NCBI GenBank assembly: GCA_019689775.1
Contig: JADGGV010000004.1
Coordinates: 1 to 35,210 of the forward strand
DNA: 35,210 bases
Origin: Gemmatimonadota bacterium
GTDB lineage: Bacteria > Gemmatimonadota > Gemmatimonadetes > Longimicrobiales > RSA9
Direction: 5' to 3'
In this document: piece after piece, positions 19,181 through 28,430 of the stretch
How the letters are laid out: every line of letters starts with the position of its first letter
How positions within the stretch are numbered: position 1 is the first letter of the stretch
The notes under the pieces: model-generated
Seen by the model: only the letters and a program-made list of their open reading frames with translations
The model's database searches: none
Told to the model about the DNA's origin: nothing
Translations under genes and position numbers: made by a program

Positions 19181-21100
19181 TCAGTCGAAGAACTGCCACT
19201 TGACGCCGTAGAAGAGGCGCGGCCCCGGGATGAACCGGTCGGGGATGTCGAACACCGGCCTGCGGTGCAGCATGTCCTCGTACCGCAGGAAGATGCGGAA
19301 GTCGAGGATGCGGATGCTGAGGAACAGGTCGTAGCCGGTGACGGCCTGCACGACGTCGATGCCGCCCGGGTCCGTCGTCGTCGGCGCGGGGACGAGCATG
19401 GCGCCGCGCGAGCGCGCCTCGGCGCGGGCGTAGATCCCGAGGTGCCCGCTGCGAAGCGGCGACCCGTCGTAGACGAGCGCGCCGCGCCAGTTGATCTGGG
19501 GCGTGTAGAGCGGGAGCGCCGCGGTGGTCCAGCGGTTTCCGGACCCCTCGATGGAGAACGGGCCCCAGAGGCGCAGGCGGCCGAAGCCCTCGACGCCGGT
19601 CAGCGTCGCGCCGGGGTAGAGGCGGTCGATCCGGTCGAACGGGAGGCCGAAGGGCGCGACCGAGTCGGCGCGGACGTGGACGAGCGCGCCCCCGGCGGAA
19701 AGGGGGCCCACGCTCAGCTCGGCGCCGCCCCGAACCCCGGTCCGGTCGGTGAAGAGCGGCGCGCCCGTGCTGTCGCGGAGGAACTGCGTGCCCTGCTCGC
19801 CCCCGCCGAACTCGGCGAAGAGCGAGACGCCGGGCAGCGGCGAGAGGCGCCCACGCAGCCGGGTCGAGGTGAGCTGCCGCGAGCTCCAGTCCTCGAGGCG
19901 GATGCCGCCGTCCAGCTCGAGGATCCGGCCGAGGCGCGCGCCGGCGGAGAGGTCGAGATCGCTCCGCGGCAGCGCATCGTCGCTGCGAACGCGGAAGGCG
20001 CCGAGCCCCCAGAGGCCGCCGTGCTCGTAGCCGAGCCGCACGCCGGCCTGGCGGCTCGCGAGCCGGAGCGTCGTGCTGTCGACGTCGGCGAGGAACGCGC
20101 TGGCGCCGGTGCCGACCGTGCCCGCCGCGATCGGCGACTCGGGCTCGGTGAGCAACGAATCGAGCACCGGCTGGTCCACGGACGAGCCGCCCACGTACGC
20201 CTCCCCGGTGAGCCCGGGCGCGAGGCGGCCGCGCGCGCGGATCGTCCAGTCGGTCCGATGGAAGTCCCCGGTCCACGGGACGTTCTCGCTGCGCTCCACC
20301 GTGTTCCGGCGAAGCTCTCCCTCGATGCCGAACCGGGAGCGGATCCACCCCCACTTCAGCCAACCGCCGGTCTCGTTGCCGGGGACGTTGCGCTGGTAGC
20401 CTTGCGTGTCGAGCCGCTCGACGGCGCCGGCGAATGGCCCGAACAGGAAGTGCGGCGCCAGGAACTGGCCGCGGAATAGGTTCCCGCGCGGCTCGGTGAC
20501 GCCCGCCTCGATGCGGGCGTAGGAACGGTAGTCGGTCGGGCTCACCGTGTAGAGGTCGACGCGAAGCACGTCGAGGCGGCGCTCGATGCGGACGCGCCGG
20601 ACGTCGGCCAGCGCGATGGAGGCCAGGTCGACGGCCGCCGAGGAGAGCGGGTCCAGCGCGTAGCCGTCGAGGTACACCTCGACGCGTCCGCCCGCGCCGG
20701 CCAGCGTGCTCACCTCCGAGGGCTGGACGTAGTACCCGGCCTGCACCGGGATAACGCCGGGGATCCGCTCCAGCAGCTCGCCGAGCGTGACCGCGGCGGA
20801 GCGCAGCAGCGCATCCCGGTCGTAGACCCAGACCTGGCCCCCGAACGACGCCGCGGCCCCGTCCGGTAGCTCCGGGAGCTGCGGGGGCGGCGTCGTATCG
20901 CGCGGCGCCGGGGCCGGCGCACCCGCCGTGTCCGGCGCGGCGGCGGTCGTGTCGCCCGGCGCGCGGGCGCTGTCCGGTCGCGCCTGCGCCGTCGCCGACG
21001 AGGCGATCGCCAGCGACGCGAGGCACCCAAGCAGGACGGCCGAAAAAAAGCCCCCGATCCTGCTCCGGGGGCCAACCGCGTTCACGGATGGCAGCATCAT
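19181..21100 (-). CDS. TonB-dependent receptor-like plug/barrel outer-membrane protein
   Basis: This is a predicted outer-membrane protein of 639 aa. A signal peptide (about 1-39, LLGCLASLAIASSATAQA) and a Pro/Ala/Asp-rich spacer precede a plug-like domain (about 80-175: VTLGELLERIPGVI, then VEVYLDGYALDP). The rest is a run of alternating strands ending GVKWQFFD, with an aromatic C-terminal strand. It is small for a TonB receptor and no TonB box is obvious, so TonB dependence is uncertain. The ATG at 21100 overlaps the pepA stop (ATGA) and no clear SD is present, so coupling to pepA is likely. The ligand is unknown. Confidence 0.82.
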   Translation of the reverse strand: MMLPSVNAVGPRSRIGGFFSAVLLGCLASLAIASSATAQARPDSARAPGDTTAAAPDTAGAPAPAPRDTTPPPQLPELPDGAAASFGGQVWVYDRDALLRSAAVTLGELLERIPGVIPVQAGYYVQPSEVSTLAGAGGRVEVYLDGYALDPLSSAAVDLASIALADVRRVRIERRLDVLRVDLYTVSPTDYRSYARIEAGVTEPRGNLFRGQFLAPHFLFGPFAGAVERLDTQGYQRNVPGNETGGWLKWGWIRSRFGIEGELRRNTVERSENVPWTGDFHRTDWTIRARGRLAPGLTGEAYVGGSSVDQPVLDSLLTEPESPIAAGTVGTGASAFLADVDSTTLRLASRQAGVRLGYEHGGLWGLGAFRVRSDDALPRSDLDLSAGARLGRILELDGGIRLEDWSSRQLTSTRLRGRLSPLPGVSLFAEFGGGEQGTQFLRDSTGAPLFTDRTGVRGGAELSVGPLSAGGALVHVRADSVAPFGLPFDRIDRLYPGATLTGVEGFGRLRLWGPFSIEGSGNRWTTAALPLYTPQINWRGALVYDGSPLRSGHLGIYARAEARSRGAMLVPAPTTTDPGGIDVVQAVTGYDLFLSIRILDFRIFLRYEDMLHRRPVFDIPDRFIPGPRLFYGVKWQFFD

Positions 21101-22620
21101 TCGACCCGCGAACGGACCCACTCGATGAAGAGGCGCGTCGGCACGCCCGTCGCTCCTTTGCGAAGGTACGGGGGCACATCCTCGCGCCAGGCCGTGCCGG
21201 CGATGTCGAGGTGCGCCCACGGGATGTCCCCGGCAAACTCCTTCAGGAACCAGCCGGCCGTAATCGTTCCGGCGGGCCGCCCGCCGGTGTTCTTGATGTC
21301 CGCCACCGCGCTGTCGATCTGCGGGCGGTACTCGTCCCAGAGCGGCAGTGGCCAGCACCGCTCGCCGACGCGCTGGCCGGCCTTCCGGACCTCGTCGATC
21401 AGGTCGCCGTCGTTCCCCATCAGGCCGATGGCGTGGTGCCCGAGCGCGATGACGCAGGCGCCCGTCAGCGTCGCCGCGTCGACCATCGCCCGCGGGTTGT
21501 AGCGGCGGGCATACGCGAGCGCATCGGCGAGCACGAGGCGCCCCTCGGCGTCGGTGTTCACGACCTCGATCGTCTTGCCGAGCAGCGAGCCGATCACGTC
21601 CCCCGGCTTGACCGCCGTGCCGGACGGCATGTTCTCGGTCGAGGGGACGAGGCCGACGACGTTGGCCGGGAGCCTCAGCTCCGCGATCGCCTTCAGCGCG
21701 GCGAGCACGGCGGCGGCGCCCGACATGTCGTACTTCATCTCCTCCATGCGCTCGGCCGGCTTGATCGAGATGCCGCCGGTGTCGAACGTGATCCCCTTCC
21801 CGATCAGGACGAGCGGCGGATCGCCGTCTGCGCCGCCGTTATACTCCAGGATGATGAACCGAGGTTCCTCCTGACTCCCCTGCGCAACCGCGAGCAGCGC
21901 CTTCATCCCCGCGCGCTCGATGCCGGCGCGGTCGAGGACCGTCACCCGCAGACCGTGCTCGGCGGCGATGCGCTCGGCGGTCGCGGCGAGGTGGGTCGGC
22001 GTGGCGATGTTGCCGGGGAGCGTCTGAAGCTCGCGCGCGAGGTTCTCGGCGCGCGCCGCGACCGCGCCGTAGGCGGCCGCCCGCCCGAACTCCGCACGCT
22101 CCTCGGTATCGCGGGCGAGGAGCGTGACCGCCTCGACATCGACGCGCTCGGTGGCGTCGGCGCCGGTCTTCAGCTCGCGGTAGTCCCACGCGGCCAGCGT
22201 CGCGGCCTCAACCGTGGCGAGCCCGGCGTGATACGCGCCCATGTGCTCGCTCAGCCGGTCCACGTGCGCCATGCTGAAGGCCAGCTCACGGACGCGCAGC
22301 TTCTCGGCCTGCCGCACGGCGACGCCGACCGCGCGGCGGAGCTGTTCGCTCGTGTACTCCTCGCGCTTGCCGACGCCGACGACGAGGACGCGCTCGGCGG
22401 CGATCTGCCCGTCCGCGGGGTAGAGCAGGAGCGTCTCGTCCTTCTTGCCCTGGAAGTCGCCCCGCTCCAGGACGCGCGAGATTGCGCCCCCCAGACGGCG
22501 GTCGACGTCGGCCGCGAGACCGCCGGGCTGCTGATCCCGCTGGAAGTGCTGGAGTACGAGGAGGGGCGTCCGGTAGTCGGACGGCGCCGCCGCCTCGATC
22601 GCGATTCGTAGCTCCGCCAT
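21097..22620 (-). CDS. pepA: Leucyl aminopeptidase (M17)
   Basis: PepA removes N-terminal residues from peptides using two metal ions. The metal ligands and catalytic residues are visible: K275 and D280 (GKGITFDTGG), K287 (ISIKPAE), D298 (KYDMSG), and D357, E359 and R361 in NTDAEGRL. The C-terminal half carries DAATLTGACVIALG and ends in a normal M17 fold. The length is 507 aa. The ORF-track start at 24144 is a read-through shadow; the ATG at 22620, 11 bases after the icd stop, matches the family. No signal peptide is visible, so the enzyme is cytoplasmic. Confidence 0.97.
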   Translation of the reverse strand: MAELRIAIEAAAPSDYRTPLLVLQHFQRDQQPGGLAADVDRRLGGAISRVLERGDFQGKKDETLLLYPADGQIAAERVLVVGVGKREEYTSEQLRRAVGVAVRQAEKLRVRELAFSMAHVDRLSEHMGAYHAGLATVEAATLAAWDYRELKTGADATERVDVEAVTLLARDTEERAEFGRAAAYGAVAARAENLARELQTLPGNIATPTHLAATAERIAAEHGLRVTVLDRAGIERAGMKALLAVAQGSQEEPRFIILEYNGGADGDPPLVLIGKGITFDTGGISIKPAERMEEMKYDMSGAAAVLAALKAIAELRLPANVVGLVPSTENMPSGTAVKPGDVIGSLLGKTIEVVNTDAEGRLVLADALAYARRYNPRAMVDAATLTGACVIALGHHAIGLMGNDGDLIDEVRKAGQRVGERCWPLPLWDEYRPQIDSAVADIKNTGGRPAGTITAGWFLKEFAGDIPWAHLDIAGTAWREDVPPYLRKGATGVPTRLFIEWVRSRVE

Positions 22621-22631
22621 ACCCCGTCCCC

Positions 22632-23861
22632 TCACATGTTGTCGACGATCCGCTCGGCGAAGCCCGAGGTGGAGACGAGCGTGGCCCCCTCCATCTGGCG
22701 CTCCAGATCGTACGTCACGGTCTTGCGCGCGATCGCCCCCTCCAGACCGCGCACCACGAGCCTCGCGGCCTCGTCCCAGCCCAGGTGCTCGAGCATCATC
22801 ACACCGGACAGGATGAGCGAGCCGGGGTTGACCTTGTCCTGATTCGCGTACTTCGGCGCGGTCCCGTGCGTGGCCTCGAAGACGGCCACCTGCTCGCCGA
22901 CGTTCGCGCCGGGCGCCATGCCGAGGCCGCCGACCTGGGCGGCCGCGGCATCCGAGAGGTAGTCGCCGTTCAGGTTGGGCGTGGCGATCACCGAGTACTC
23001 GTCCGGGCGGAGCAGCAACTGCTGGAACATCGCGTCCGCGATGCGGTCCTTCACCACGACCTTCCCCTCCGCGCCCGCGGCCTCCGACTCCGGTACGGTG
23101 CGGTCCCCGAAGAGCTGCCGGGCGACGTCGTACCCCCAGTCCCGGAACGCGCCCTCGGTGAACTTCATGATGTTGCCCTTGTGCACGAGCGTCACCGAGG
23201 GGCGCTTGCGCTGAATGGCGTAGCGGATCGCCGCGGCGACGAGCCGCTTGGAGCCGTACTCGCTCATCGGCTTGACGCCGATGGCGCTCTCGGGCCGGAT
23301 GTCCGAGCCCATCTCCTCGACGAGGAACCGACGCACCTTCTCCGCCGCCTCGCTCCCCGCGGACCACTCGATGCCGGCGTAGACATCCTCCGTGTTCTCG
23401 CGGAAGATGACGACGTCGACCTTCTCCGGCTCCTTGACCGGCGACGGCACGCCGGGGATGTAGCGGACCGGCCGAATGCAGGCGTAGAGATCGAGGACCT
23501 GCCGGAGCGTCACGTTCAGCGAGCGGATGCCGCCGCCGACCGGGGTGGTGAGCGGCCCCTTGATCCCGACCTTGAACTCCTGGAGGGCGGCCAGGGTCTC
23601 GTCGGGGAGCCACTCGCCCGTGACGTTGACGGCCTTCTCGCCGGCGAAGACCTCCATCCAGACGATGGCGCGGGCCCCTTCGTACGCCCGCTCGACGGCC
23701 GCGTCGAGGACGCGCTTCGTCGCCCGCCAGATGTCCGGTCCGGTGCCGTCGCCCTCGATGAACGGGATGATCGGCCGGTCGGGGACGCGCAGCTCGCCGT
23801 CGCGGACCTCGATGCGCTCCCCCTGCGAGGGGACCTCGATGAAGCGGTACGGTTCGGCCAT
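22632..23861 (-). CDS. icd: Isocitrate dehydrogenase, NADP-type
   Basis: Icd oxidatively decarboxylates isocitrate to 2-oxoglutarate. The 409-aa product has the substrate loop [13 protein letters not shown] with S114, the site phosphorylated by AceK in enterics. It also has [36 protein letters not shown] and the metal site [14 protein letters not shown]337 and Y338 in [10 protein letters not shown] are the residues that select NADP in Escherichia coli Icd. It begins 3 bases after... the gltA stop region, so the two TCA genes are cotranscribed. No aceK is in the window. Confidence 0.97.
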
Positions 23862-23864
23862 GGG

Positions 23865-24998
23865 CTACTCGCGCTCCTGGAGGGGCTGGACCTTGCGGTG
23901 CTTCGGCCCGATGTACTCCGATTGCGGGCGGATCAGGCGATTGTCCGAGTACTGCTCCATCACGTGGGCCGTCCACCCCGCCATGCGGGCGCAGGCGAAG
24001 ACGTTCGTGAACAGGTCCATCGGGATGCCGAGCGTGAAGTAGGCCGACGCGCTGAAGAAGTCGACGTTCGGGTAGACCTGCTTCCCCCGTCGCTCCATCT
24101 CCACCCGCATGGTCTCCTGGATGCGCTCCGAGATCTGGAGCCACTTCGCGCCGCCCATGCGCGCGGACAGCTCCTCGGCGAGGCGCTTCAGGATCGGCGC
24201 CCGCGGGTCCAGCGTGCGGTAGACGCGATGGCCGAAGCCCATGATCTTCCCGCCGGAGGCGAGCCTGGCCCGCACGTAGTCGGCGGCGCGATCCGGCTCG
24301 CCGATCTCGTGCAGCATCACCATCACCTGCTCGTTCGCCCCGCCGTGCAGCGGTCCCTTCAGCGTGCCGATCGCCGACGTGACCGCCGAGTGCATGTCGG
24401 AGAGCGTACCGGCCGTGACGCGGGCGGCGAACGTGGAGGCGTTCATGCCGTGCTCCGCATGGAGGATGAGCGCGGCGTCGATGATCCGGGCGCTCAGCTC
24501 GTCGGGGCGTTCGCCCCGCAGCATGTAAAGCAGATTGGCCGCGAGGCCGAGATCATTGTTAGGCGGGACGGGTTGCTTGCCGTGCCGGATGCGGTCGATG
24601 GCGGCCGTGAGCGTGATGGTCTGCCCGGTCAGGCGGATGGCCTTGCGCTGATTGCCCTCCGGCGACATGTCCTCCGTGTCGGGGTCCCACAGGGCGAGCG
24701 CGGACACGGCGGTACGGAGCGTGCTCATGGGGTGGGCATGCTTCGGCGCCGCCCGCACGACGTCCAGGACGCGCTCGTCGACGACGGCCCCGGCCACGAG
24801 CTGGCGCCGGATCTCCGAGAGCCGGGACGCGTTCGGGAGCTCGCCGAACCAGAGGAGGTGGCAGACCTCCTCGAACGTCGTGTTCTCCGCGAGGTCCTCG
24901 ATCTCGTAGCCGGCGTAGATGAGGCGGCCCTCATCGCCATAGACGTGACTGAGCGCCGTCTGCGCCGCGACGACCCCCTCCAACCCCTTGCTCGCCAT
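23865..24998 (-). CDS. gltA: Citrate synthase
   Basis: GltA condenses acetyl-CoA with oxaloacetate. The catalytic residues are H218 (GPLHGGANE), H257 (GFGHRVYRTLDPRA) and D313 (PNVDFFSA); the HAEHGMNAST segment at 180-189 binds oxaloacetate. At 377 aa it is the short type common in Gram-positives and several other phyla, without the enteric N-terminal NADH-regulatory domain. The ATG at 24998 has AGGAG seven bases upstream. The ORF-track extension to 25769 is antisense to the sigma factor gene. It heads the gltA-icd-pepA-barrel run and has a well-formed promoter. Confidence 0.97.
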   Translation of the reverse strand: MASKGLEGVVAAQTALSHVYGDEGRLIYAGYEIEDLAENTTFEEVCHLLWFGELPNASRLSEIRRQLVAGAVVDERVLDVVRAAPKHAHPMSTLRTAVSALALWDPDTEDMSPEGNQRKAIRLTGQTITLTAAIDRIRHGKQPVPPNNDLGLAANLLYMLRGERPDELSARIIDAALILHAEHGMNASTFAARVTAGTLSDMHSAVTSAIGTLKGPLHGGANEQVMVMLHEIGEPDRAADYVRARLASGGKIMGFGHRVYRTLDPRAPILKRLAEELSARMGGAKWLQISERIQETMRVEMERRGKQVYPNVDFFSASAYFTLGIPMDLFTNVFACARMAGWTAHVMEQYSDNRLIRPQSEYIGPKHRKVQPLQERE

Positions 24999-25135
24999 GA
25001 CCCGACTCCTGTGGGGCAGCTTCCTACGACGACCGGCCGGTGTCGCGGCGCCCGGAACGCGCCCGGCGGATACAGCGACGGGGCCGACATCCCCCACCGA
25101 CGACGCGAGGGCGTCTGCCCCGGCAAGAAGCGGGC

Positions 25136-25163
25136 GGAACACGCGGCCAGGGGGCGAGTATAG
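25136..25163 (+). promoter_or_regulatory. Possible ECF-type promoter for the sigma operon
   Basis: GGAAC (25136-25140), the commonest ECF -35 core, is followed after 17 bases by GTATAG (25158-25163). It points at the sigma factor gene and could serve autoregulation, as many ECF operons do. The -10 is not a typical ECF one, so this is weak. Confidence 0.25.
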
Positions 25164-25185: not shown

Positions 25186-25238
25186 GGGCAGATGGCTCCC
25201 CCGGTTGGCGTTACCATTCCCGCGGTCCGTCGTCGGAT

Positions 25239-25814
25239 ATGAGCGTAGATCCCCCGGCGCAGAAGGGCACGGACGAGGAAGCGGACGGCGCGGTCGTCGC
25301 CCGAGTTCGCGCGGGAGACCGCGAGGCGTACCGCATCCTGGTGCGCCGCTACCAGGACCTGCTCTACCGCCACGCGCTGCGCGTCGTGGGCGACGGCGAC
25401 CTCGCGGCCGACCTCGTGCAGGGCGCGCTCGTGAAGGCGTACGCCGAGATCCGGCGTTGCCGCGACCCGGAGCGCTTCGGGGCGTGGGTCTTTCGCATCC
25501 TGGTGAACGGATGCAAGGATCACCTGAAGAGCCGCCGGCGCCGGGACGTGCCCCTCGAGGAGGCGCCGATCGCGGCGACGGCCGGACGCGCCGATCCGGC
25601 CCGCGACCTCGACCGGTCGGAGCTGGCGGCGGTGCTCGAGGATGCGCTCGCGCGGCTGCCGGAGAGTCTCCGCGAGGCGTTCCTGCTCAAGCACGTCGAG
25701 GGCCGATCGTACGACGAGATCGCCACGATGCTCGACGCCTCCGTGCCGGCGCTCAAGATGCGCGTGCACCGTGCCCGCGAGGCGCTGAAAGCGATGCTGG
25801 AGGAGGTGCTGTGA
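25239..25814 (+). CDS. ECF-type RNA polymerase sigma factor
   Basis: This 191-aa sigma-70 family factor has only regions 2 and 4. Region 2 spans about 25-95 (REAYRILVRRYQDLLYRHAL, DLVQGALVKAY, FGAWVFRILVNGCKDHLK). Region 4 spans about 130-183 (LARLPESLREAFLLKHVEG, SYDEIATMLDASVPALKMRVHRAR). The linker is short. The ATG at 25239 has no clear SD; no better start is in frame. The next gene starts in a TGATG overlap and encodes a single-TM protein in the usual anti-sigma position. I infer that it reads an envelope signal; the trigger and regulon are unknown. Confidence 0.94.
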   Translation: MSVDPPAQKGTDEEADGAVVARVRAGDREAYRILVRRYQDLLYRHALRVVGDGDLAADLVQGALVKAYAEIRRCRDPERFGAWVFRILVNGCKDHLKSRRRRDVPLEEAPIAATAGRADPARDLDRSELAAVLEDALARLPESLREAFLLKHVEGRSYDEIATMLDASVPALKMRVHRAREALKAMLEEVL

Positions 25815-26464
25815 TGCACCCGGATCTGCAGCGGTACCTGGATGGCGAGATCCCGCGCTCGGCGCTCACGCCCGAGCTGGCGCGCGAGGCGGAGGAGTGG
25901 CGGGAGCTGCTGACCGACCTCGCACGGCTCGGCGAGCCGAAGGCGCCGACCTGGCTGGAGTGCCGCGTCATGGCCGCGCTACCTGCGCGCCCCCGCGACG
26001 CCTGGTGGCGCCGCGCGCTGCGCTGGGCGATCGAGCCGCACACGATCCGGCTCCGTCCCGTGGCCCTCCTGCCCGTCGCGGCACTCGCAGCGCTCCTGGC
26101 CTGGCCGCGCTCGCGGCCGACGGCCACCGCCGCGCCCGACGACGCTGCGGCCGGCGCCGTCGGCGGGACCGATGGCGGCGCGATGGTCTACGTGCAGTTC
26201 GTGCTCAAGGCGCCGCAGGCGCGCTCGGTCGCGGTCGCGGGCGACTTCAACGCGTGGCAGCCCGCGGCCGCCGAGCTTCGCGACGCGAACGGCGACGGCG
26301 TCTGGACCGGGTTCATCCCGCTCCCGGCCGGCGTGCACAAGTATATGTTCGTCGTCGACGGCCAGCGCTGGATCAGCGATCCACAAGCGGAACGCTACGT
26401 GGACGACGGCTTCGGCATGCGCAACGCGCTGATCTCGGTCACACCGCCCGTGAGGTCTTCCTGA
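25814..26464 (+). CDS. Single-TM protein with extracytoplasmic E-set (glycogen-binding-like) domain, anti-sigma position
   Basis: The 216-aa product has a polar cytoplasmic N-terminal part (1-80) and one membrane helix at about 82-97 (VALLPVAALAALLAW). A linker is followed by a C-terminal E-set domain of the AMPK-beta/CBM48 type (about 124-210) with VAGDFNAWQP, VWTGFIPL and KYMFVVDGQRW. The N-terminal part starts MHPDLQRYLDGE as in many anti-sigma factors but lacks a clear HxxxCxxC zinc motif. AGGAGG precedes its ATG, which overlaps the sigma stop. I infer an anti-sigma whose sensor domain may bind glucan. The domain call is firm and the role is not proven. Confidence 0.85.
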   Translation: MHPDLQRYLDGEIPRSALTPELAREAEEWRELLTDLARLGEPKAPTWLECRVMAALPARPRDAWWRRALRWAIEPHTIRLRPVALLPVAALAALLAWPRSRPTATAAPDDAAAGAVGGTDGGAMVYVQFVLKAPQARSVAVAGDFNAWQPAAAELRDANGDGVWTGFIPLPAGVHKYMFVVDGQRWISDPQAERYVDDGFGMRNALISVTPPVRSS

Positions 26465-27615
26465 GGGGACGCGCCGCCCGCAGCGCGGCCGCGCTGGCGG
26501 GGATGCTCGCCCTGGCCCTCCCGGCGGAGGGTCAGGGCGTCTCCATCTGGCTGGACGCCACGGCGGCGCACACGCGGCCGCCCGCCGGGATCGACGGCGG
26601 CGAGGCGGGCCTGTACGGGATCGCCGCCGCGCGGCTCCAGCTCCAGTCGGCCGGCCCGGCCGCGCTCCAGCTCGACGTCGACGGCGGTCGTGGGTCCGCG
26701 GACGAGCCGGCCGGCTGGCTCGAGGCCGAGCTGGCGGGCGACGCCGCGCGCGCCTGGAGCCACGGCGCCTTCGCCCTCCGGGCGTCCGCCTTCGGCCTGG
26801 ACTACACCGAACCGTTCCGGTTCCGCGCCGCCGGCGCCACGCTCGAACCGCGCGTCGCGTTCGCGCTGGGCGATGTCGTCCTCACGGCGCAGGGCGACGT
26901 CCGCCGCGGCTCCTTCCGCATGGACGTCGACACGGGCGCTGCGGCCGTCCACCGTACCGGCGTCCTCTCGGTCACGGGCGGCTCGTTGGCCGTCGCGCGC
27001 ACCGTCGGGCCCGCCGTCATCGAGCTGGCCGGCGAGGGACGGCACGGCGCGCTCAACGGGTGGTTCCGCGGCGGGACGGCGACGCTGACGATCGGCGGCG
27101 AGCGCACGGACGTCAGCGTCAGCGTCCGCGCCTGGGATACCCCGCTGGGGGGCGAGGTCGGCTACGGCATCGATGTCCAGACCCGGCTCGCAGGCGCGCT
27201 TTGGGGCCACGCCCAGGTCGGGCGGGCCACCATGGATCCGCTCTACGGCACGCCCGGCAGCTTCGGCGCCAGCGTCGGCGTGAGCTGGCGGCTGAGCTCC
27301 GGCGCACCCGCGCCGGCGCGCCCACGACCGGTCGTCGAGATCGGCGAGACCGCCGGCGCCGGGCGCCGCGTCCGGTTCCGGTTGCATGCGCCCCACGCGC
27401 ATCGCGCCGCCGTGAGCGGCGATTTCACCGGGTGGCAGCCCCGACCCATGCGGCGCGTGGGCGCCGATTGGCAGCTCGAGCTCGTCGTCCCCGTCGGCTA
27501 TCACCACTTCGGGTTCCTCATCGACGGCCGGACGTGGCTGGTGCCTTCGGACGCGCCCGGGATCGAACGGGACGGCTGGGGGCGCGAAAACGCCAGCTTC
27601 ATCGTCGAAAAGTGA
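26461..27615 (+). CDS. Predicted outer-membrane barrel with C-terminal E-set domain
   Basis: The 384-aa product begins with a signal-like segment (about 2-25, basic then AALAGMLALALPAEGQG). About 250 residues of alternating strands follow, ending GVSWRLSS (about 272-280), then a Pro/Ala linker and an E-set domain (about 300-384: VRFRLHAPHAHRAAVSGDFTGWQP, YHHFGFLIDG). The E-set resembles that of the preceding gene. No ATG, GTG or TTG fits. A CTG at 26461 has GAGG six bases upstream and overlaps the preceding stop (CTGA), so I call a CTG start. The ATG at 26503 would remove half the signal. Barrel topology is inferred; no plug is seen. Confidence 0.75.
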   Translation: MRGRAARSAAALAGMLALALPAEGQGVSIWLDATAAHTRPPAGIDGGEAGLYGIAAARLQLQSAGPAALQLDVDGGRGSADEPAGWLEAELAGDAARAWSHGAFALRASAFGLDYTEPFRFRAAGATLEPRVAFALGDVVLTAQGDVRRGSFRMDVDTGAAAVHRTGVLSVTGGSLAVARTVGPAVIELAGEGRHGALNGWFRGGTATLTIGGERTDVSVSVRAWDTPLGGEVGYGIDVQTRLAGALWGHAQVGRATMDPLYGTPGSFGASVGVSWRLSSGAPAPARPRPVVEIGETAGAGRRVRFRLHAPHAHRAAVSGDFTGWQPRPMRRVGADWQLELVVPVGYHHFGFLIDGRTWLVPSDAPGIERDGWGRENASFIVEK

Positions 27616-27668
27616 CGAAATGAACCGTCGCGCGTCTTTGTAGCAGACCGCTTCGAAGAGCAAACGCC

Positions 27669-28430
27669 ATGGTTCGACCGAGGTTCTCCGTCACCCTCCT
27701 CGTGGGGTTATGCGGCGTGCTGGCGCACGCCGCGGCCGCGCAGCAGCCCGGCGCGCTCGCCCGCGCACGGGCGCAGCTCCCCGCCAGCGCCACCGCCCGC
27801 TTCGACGCGATCATGGCGCAGGCGCGCGCCCGTGGCCTCCCGCTCGACCCCCTGGTCGACAAGACGCTCGAGGGCGAGGCCAAGGGCGTGCCCGCCGACA
27901 TGATCCTAACCGTCGTGCAGCGCCTGGCCGGCCGACTGGAGCGAGCCCGTGGACTCCTCGACCGCACGGCGACGCCCGCCGACATCACCGCGGCCGCCGT
28001 CGCCCTCGACCGCGGCGTGCCGGAGCACGCCGTCCGCCGGCTCGCCGGCCGGAAGCGTGCACCCACCGCCCTCGCCCAGGCCGTCGTGACCCTCGGCGAC
28101 CTCGTCCAGGAGGGCGTCCCGGCCGACGCCGCCGCCGACGCCGTCAGCACCCTCGTCGACCGCGGCGCCTCCTCCGCCGACCTCAGGCAGCTCCCCGACG
28201 CGGTCCAGCGTCTCGTGCGCGAGGGCGTCCTGCCGGCACAGGCCGCCGCCGCCGTCGCCCAGGGATTCGGCAATGCCCACGGACCCCCCGGCGGCGGGAA
28301 GCCGGGAGATGCCACACGATCCCGAGGACGGGGGAGCCCGGGGCGACCGCCCGTCGCACCGGGCTCCGGCCCGCCACCCGGAAAAGGGAAGCCGCCCAAA
28401 GGGAAGCCGCCGGGTCACGATCCTCCGTGA
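27669..28430 (+). CDS. Secreted helical protein with Gly/Pro/Lys-rich tail
   Basis: I do not recognise a family. The 253-aa product has a signal peptide (about 1-25, LLVGLCGVLAHAAAAQQ). Residues 30-200 are Ala-rich helices with repeated elements of the form GVPADxxxxxVxxL (GVPADMILTVVQRL, GVPEHAVRRLAG, GVPADAAADAVSTL, GVLPAQAAAAVAQG). The tail of about 50 residues is disordered and Gly/Pro/Lys-rich (GKGKPPKGKPPGHDPP). The spacing of the repeated elements suggests an alpha-helical scaffold exposed in the periplasm or at the cell surface. It starts 53 bases after the E-set barrel gene and may belong to the same transcript. The SD is weak (GAAGAG). Confidence 0.75.
   Translation: MVRPRFSVTLLVGLCGVLAHAAAAQQPGALARARAQLPASATARFDAIMAQARARGLPLDPLVDKTLEGEAKGVPADMILTVVQRLAGRLERARGLLDRTATPADITAAAVALDRGVPEHAVRRLAGRKRAPTALAQAVVTLGDLVQEGVPADAAADAVSTLVDRGASSADLRQLPDAVQRLVREGVLPAQAAAAVAQGFGNAHGPPGGGKPGDATRSRGRGSPGRPPVAPGSGPPPGKGKPPKGKPPGHDPP

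Follow-up and report, generated by a model that had tools for sequence, protein, structure and literature searches.

A conserved ECF sigma factor module of Gemmatimonadota that probably senses the cell envelope through an AMPK-type E-set

Cell-surface signaling systems, such as FecI-FecR-FecA and FoxI-FoxR-FoxA (PMC11637429), combine an ECF sigma factor, a bitopic anti-sigma factor with a periplasmic C terminus, and an outer membrane barrel with a periplasmic domain, all of which have counterparts at the locus described here. A further likeness is to the SigI/RsgI systems of Clostridium thermocellum (PMC12203970), where a sensor of carbohydrate-binding type sits on the anti-sigma factor, outside the membrane. 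Class I anti-sigma factors (ASDI), with which about 79% of Gemmatimonadetes ECFs are associated (PMC7406223), share with the membrane protein of this locus a short helical N-terminal domain and a position beside an ECF gene. At the domain level, the nearest comparisons are the AMPK-beta glycogen-binding domain (PF16561) or CBM48, in which W100 and W133, along with K126 and N150 (AMPK-beta1), have been reported to be critical for carbohydrate binding (PMC4032982), and OmpG, a 14-stranded barrel. No description of a module of the kind presented below was found in a search of open-access papers.

The module lies in a 35,210-nucleotide stretch of DNA (here, the window) from a 4.6-Mb draft genome of 834 contigs that belongs to the phylum Gemmatimonadota. 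Judged by sequence comparison, its conserved core comprises an ECF sigma factor, a transmembrane (TM) protein ending in an E-set, and a secreted alpha-solenoid (the helical protein), with an E-set-bearing barrel as a common extra. We think it probable that this is a self-contained envelope-sensing module, in which the anti-sigma-like E-set protein controls the sigma factor and the sigma factor transcribes its own operon and the solenoid gene. The features of the locus are as follows.

25207..25236, + strand: weak candidate autoregulatory operon promoter, GGCGTTAC-15-TCGTCGG, 2 bp before the sigma ATG (leaderless)
25239..25814, + strand: ECF sigma factor, 191 aa (Pfam Sigma70_r2/r4_2; TIGR02937)
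25814..26464, + strand: membrane anti-sigma-like protein, 216 aa, with a predicted periplasmic E-set
25814..25999, + strand: N-terminal part of the TM protein (aa 1-62), like a class I anti-sigma domain without zinc ligands (hhalign to zf-HC2 profile)
26045..26101, + strand: transmembrane helix (aa 78-96), N-terminal flank positively charged
26177..26446, + strand: TM-protein E-set (AMPK1_CBM/CBM48); W148, W186, and N204 are the equivalents of AMPK W100, W133, and N150
26461..27615, + strand: predicted outer membrane beta-barrel carrying an E-set at its C terminus, 384 aa; CTG start, overlapping TGA
26536..27300, + strand: 14-stranded barrel (aa 26-280; AlphaFold2 pLDDT 91.8; OmpG among the best PDB matches)
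27334..27606, + strand: barrel E-set (aa 292-382)
27609..27638, + strand: ECF-type promoter of the helical gene, AAAGTGAC-15-GCGTCTT, the best motif match in the 35-kb window
27669..28430, + strand: predicted secreted alpha-solenoid protein, 253 aa, with signal peptide and Pro-rich tail (AlphaFold2; co-occurrence with the TM protein)

The original prediction of three head-to-tail genes with overlapping junctions was confirmed: the ATG of the TM gene overlaps the sigma stop codon (ATGA), and the CTG start of the barrel gene overlaps the TM stop codon (CTGA), the latter junction being identical in two close relatives (L035 and L036). The position called for the barrel gene stood, but its start codon was corrected to the CTG at 26461, the best available, as no ATG, GTG, or TTG start gives a full signal peptide. 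A gap of 53 bases separates the barrel gene from the helical gene. Upstream and divergent, on the minus strand at 21097-25150, translations read as leucyl aminopeptidase, isocitrate dehydrogenase, and citrate synthase.

The sigma factor gave Pfam matches to Sigma70_r2 (E 1.6e-17) and Sigma70_r4_2 (E 8.4e-16) and scored above the cutoff of TIGR02937 (sigma70-ECF); it contains sigma70 regions 2 and 4 only, in about 190 aa, as is characteristic of the ECF type. The adjoining TM protein, whose closest named relative is from "Gemmatimonadetes bacterium isolate Chersky.3_43" (L173; 53% identical), has a single hydrophobic segment, and exactly one is present in 59 of 60 family members. Its N terminus is a zinc-less class I anti-sigma-like domain by profile comparison: a profile built from the 44 N termini that carry a YLDGE-like motif (excluding 17 that are divergent or placed differently) matched a profile of zf-HC2 anti-sigma proteins, drawn from the same and related genomes, with an hhalign probability of 94.7 (E 5.8e-8), against at most 0.3 for reversed and column-shuffled profiles and for a helical-protein profile. 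The Cys/His zinc ligands are absent. This match and the overlap with the sigma gene, which takes the ATGA form in the window and in most loci, bear out the placement of the TM protein in the anti-sigma slot, and we consider it likely that it acts as an anti-sigma factor. A juxtamembrane WLxxPRxxRxRP motif (aa 68-84, about 26015-26065) was also observed, with two prolines nearly invariant across the family.

Both C termini had been assigned as E-sets, and an HMM search upheld the assignment. AMPK1_CBM scored above the Pfam cutoff of 26.8 bits in the TM protein (40.6 bits, E 2.9e-10) and in the barrel (28.7 bits, E 1.6e-6); CBM_48 exceeded its cutoff in the TM protein (E 3.3e-9), not in the window barrel. 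Across the family, the domain was found in 60/60 TM proteins and 37/37 barrels. When the window was searched with a degenerate DNA pattern allowing one mismatch, the GDFNAW/GDFTGW motifs occurred in only these two places (0.02 expected). The W100 equivalent is present in every E-set of both sets (60 TM, 37 barrel) and the W133 equivalent in 58 and 36 of them, respectively; the N150 equivalent is retained in 56 TM E-sets and only 11 barrel E-sets, and that of K126 is conserved in neither. The two tryptophans and the asparagine are also kept in the TM E-sets of barrel-less genera. The contact residues that are kept lead us to favor a carbohydrate ligand; the lack of K126 and the scarcity of N150 in the barrels speak against it, and the conserved tryptophans may also be structural. 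By topology, both E-sets would face the periplasm. The sensory role of the E-set is, like its ligand, our inference.

The barrel was modeled with AlphaFold from a 37-sequence alignment, yielding, at a mean pLDDT of 91.8, a signal helix, 14 long strands, and a small beta domain corresponding to the E-set. OmpG structures were among the best PDB matches to this model (TM-score by target length, 0.59 to 0.72). The original prediction of an outer membrane barrel is supported. Since the strand number is even, ordinary outer membrane topology would place the barrel E-set in the periplasm. Pfam analysis of the 37 barrels returned AMPK1_CBM/CBM_48 only. The barrel was detected in 129 of 249 genomes, each of which also has the TM protein. 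No barrel is detectable in 23 of the 152 module genomes, among them every sampled member of the genera g58 and g74, yet nearly all of these genomes retain the sigma factor, the TM protein, and the helical protein. A matched pair of E-sets across the two membranes, originally read as a sign of the signaling system, is thus not required.

The helical protein at 27669 had been suggested to belong to the system, a suggestion strengthened by its co-occurrence with the TM protein and its standing as the best-supported sigma target. Its AlphaFold2 model comprises a signal peptide, about ten confident helices (core pLDDT mostly 90 to 98), and a disordered Pro-rich tail, from which we predict a secreted alpha-solenoid. 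No Pfam family fits it, and a PDB search with the model gave no solved relative, the matches being led by designed helical repeats at E 0.036 or worse.

Among 249 Gemmatimonadota genomes, the TM protein was detected in 165 at an E value of 1e-4 and in 152 at E values of about 1e-9 or below. Both the TM and the helical protein occur in 150 genomes, the TM protein alone in 2, the helical protein alone in 4, and neither in 93 (Fisher p about 1e-60, with shared ancestry ignored). In 60 neighborhoods, picked from the better TM-protein matches and hence not a random sample, the TM protein is kept together with the sigma factor in 56, the helical protein in 55, and the barrel in 41; several of the gaps are contig ends. 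Gene order varies (sigma-TM-barrel-helical, sigma-TM-helical-barrel, TM-barrel-sigma-helical, or a divergent barrel). The original prediction was to be refuted if homologues of the three genes did not stay together; it withstands this check, the neighborhood persisting across families at about 60 loci. Three genomes have two modules each; in these, the sigma factor, the TM protein, and, where available, the helical protein resemble the corresponding proteins of other genomes more than their own paralogues. Modules thus evolve as units. At the level of sequence, the module, its promoter, and the co-occurrence are well supported.

A promoter motif was learned by Gibbs sampling on 53 sigma-upstream regions (10.8 nats per sequence, versus 6.1 in a shuffled control). 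It consists of GTGAC or GTTAC followed, after 16 to 17 bases, by [TA]CGTCTT, AGGTCTT, or GACTCTT. The window was left out of training; its best match on either strand is at 27609, ending 30 bases before the helical gene, and the strict form occurs once in this genome, at this same position. The -35 GTGAC of this promoter shares bases with the barrel stop codon; overlap of this element with the TGA of the preceding gene is frequent, being seen in the window (27609-27638), L035, L037, L048, and L073. The window site before the sigma gene is weak by itself (rank 45 to 48 in the window), whereas the equivalents in relatives are strong, including that in L173, where both the sigma gene and the helical gene are preceded by a site. 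In many loci the -10 element lies 0 to 9 bases before the start codon, which suggests a leaderless mRNA.

Operons absent from training gave the same picture. In all six TM-first operons, the TM gene is preceded by a site of rank 1 to 3, and the internal sigma gene, where one was found, by none. Sites of rank 1 to 3 precede 11 of 19 separately placed helical genes and 0 of 37 abutting ones (p 5e-7), a result understated by some site-less helical genes whose starts appear to be miscalled. In five g58 genomes, the strict form occurs once per genome, at the module's own operon; looser patterns give 5 to 10 sites per genome, several recurring in apparent coding sequence. Given the best matches before the helical gene and the held-out operons, it is probable that the module regulates itself and that the solenoid is a main target. 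From the pairing of motif and module, we infer that the module's own sigma factor reads the motif; its reader could, however, be another ECF sigma factor of the cell, given a second module in the same genome (G000 contig C828, L004). That module runs barrel-sigma-helical; its TM gene falls outside the contig, and it has a GTGAC-N17-GCGTCC-like site upstream of its helical gene. Elsewhere, the promoters of paralogous modules are of different types, GTTACC..ACTCTT and GCGTGACGCC..AGGTC (L061, L068, L069, L076, and L084 versus L051, L057, L059, and L066), which suggests insulated sigma specificities. A lipoprotein gene in four g58 genomes (L153, L169, L156, and L170) carries a conserved promoter-like site with a changing spacer and may be a further sigma target.

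In the reading that we prefer, the sigma factor would be held at the inner membrane by the TM protein, whose E-set would bind a ligand in the periplasm, with a glucan-like carbohydrate the likeliest candidate. The state of that ligand, or the barrel E-set where present, would decide whether the anti-sigma factor is destroyed or relaxed. The freed sigma factor would transcribe its own operon and the solenoid gene, and the solenoid would work in the periplasm as an effector or feedback partner.

Several alternatives were weighed. The TM protein might be an unrelated membrane protein that is cotranscribed with the sigma factor, as no Pfam anti-sigma family scored above cutoff in the window protein, or widely in the family, and the NCBIfam antisigma model gave only 0.085. 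The match to the zf-HC2 profile with clean controls, the way its gene constantly overlaps that of the sigma factor, and the divergence of sigma and TM paralogues as pairs make this very unlikely. Most improbable, in our estimation, is that glycogen of the cell itself, or another stored alpha-glucan, is what the module senses. The nearest relatives of the E-sets are indeed domains of AMPK-beta, glycogen branching enzyme, and pullulanase, and the module is commoner in genomes with GlgB (76/87) than in those without (76/162), in a comparison that ignores phylogeny. However, 76 of the 152 module genomes have no GlgB over the cutoff, so that own glycogen is not required, and glycogen is cytoplasmic whereas the E-sets are periplasmic by topology.

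A possible, if not a likely, alternative has the solenoid bind the anti-sigma factor directly and exert negative feedback on it, on the model of RseB with RseA or CpxP with CpxA; the E-set would then bind protein and the system would report envelope stress. The near-perfect co-occurrence of solenoid and TM protein, which persists where the barrel has been lost, fits this proposal, as do the predicted secretion of the solenoid and its place as the clearest sigma target; it has, however, no relative in sequence or solved fold among such regulators. We are doubtful of a relay akin to cell-surface signaling, in which the outer membrane is the source of the signal and the E-sets serve to dock proteins rather than to bind sugar, the barrel E-set touching that of the anti-sigma factor and protecting it from or exposing it to proteolysis. 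Such a relay agrees with the periplasmic topology of both E-sets, with the barrel never occurring without the TM protein, and with the FoxA-FoxR precedent of a receptor domain that protects an anti-sigma factor (PMC11637429). Against it, 23 genomes run the module without a detectable barrel, and the sugar-contact residues are conserved in the TM E-sets of barrel-less lineages. We regard as unlikely a trans-envelope glycan-sensing relay lacking a TonB receptor, in which the barrel and anti-sigma E-sets would share or compete for one glucan-like ligand and so control a tiny regulon of the module and a new kind of periplasmic solenoid.

Compared with the described systems, the module would work most like cell-surface signaling and RsgI, yet it departs from what defines each. 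Its barrel is 14-stranded with a C-terminal E-set and is dispensable, whereas that of FecIRA is a TonB-dependent receptor with an N-terminal signaling domain, and the solenoid is an additional protein and the main target; neither Pfam analysis of the 37 barrels nor the 14-strand model revealed a TonB-dependent receptor with a plug and an N-terminal signaling domain. SigI/RsgI systems are Gram positive, their SigI is not of the ECF type, their CBM3, CBM42, PA14, or glycosidase sensors face outside, and they have no outer membrane partner; a Pfam scan of 60 TM-family members returned no RsgI domain, and the sigma factor here is ECF-type, not SigI. Unlike ASDI proteins, the TM protein has an E-set sensor domain and no zinc ligands, and its distant members lack the YLDGE motif. 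The E-sets match the AMPK-beta/CBM48 families by Pfam in all members but differ from AMPK-beta in being bacterial, periplasmic, and borne by an anti-sigma-like protein and a barrel. The barrel shares 11 to 14% identity with OmpG and adds a periplasmic domain to it.

Gemmatimonadota are an abundant, little-studied soil phylum. The promoter is defined well enough for a reporter, which makes the ligand and the roles of the solenoid and the barrel directly testable. With the module, found in about 60% of the sampled genomes, Gemmatimonadota would have a defined system for sensing the envelope, and the AMPK-type E-set would join the domains that anti-sigma factors use as sensors.
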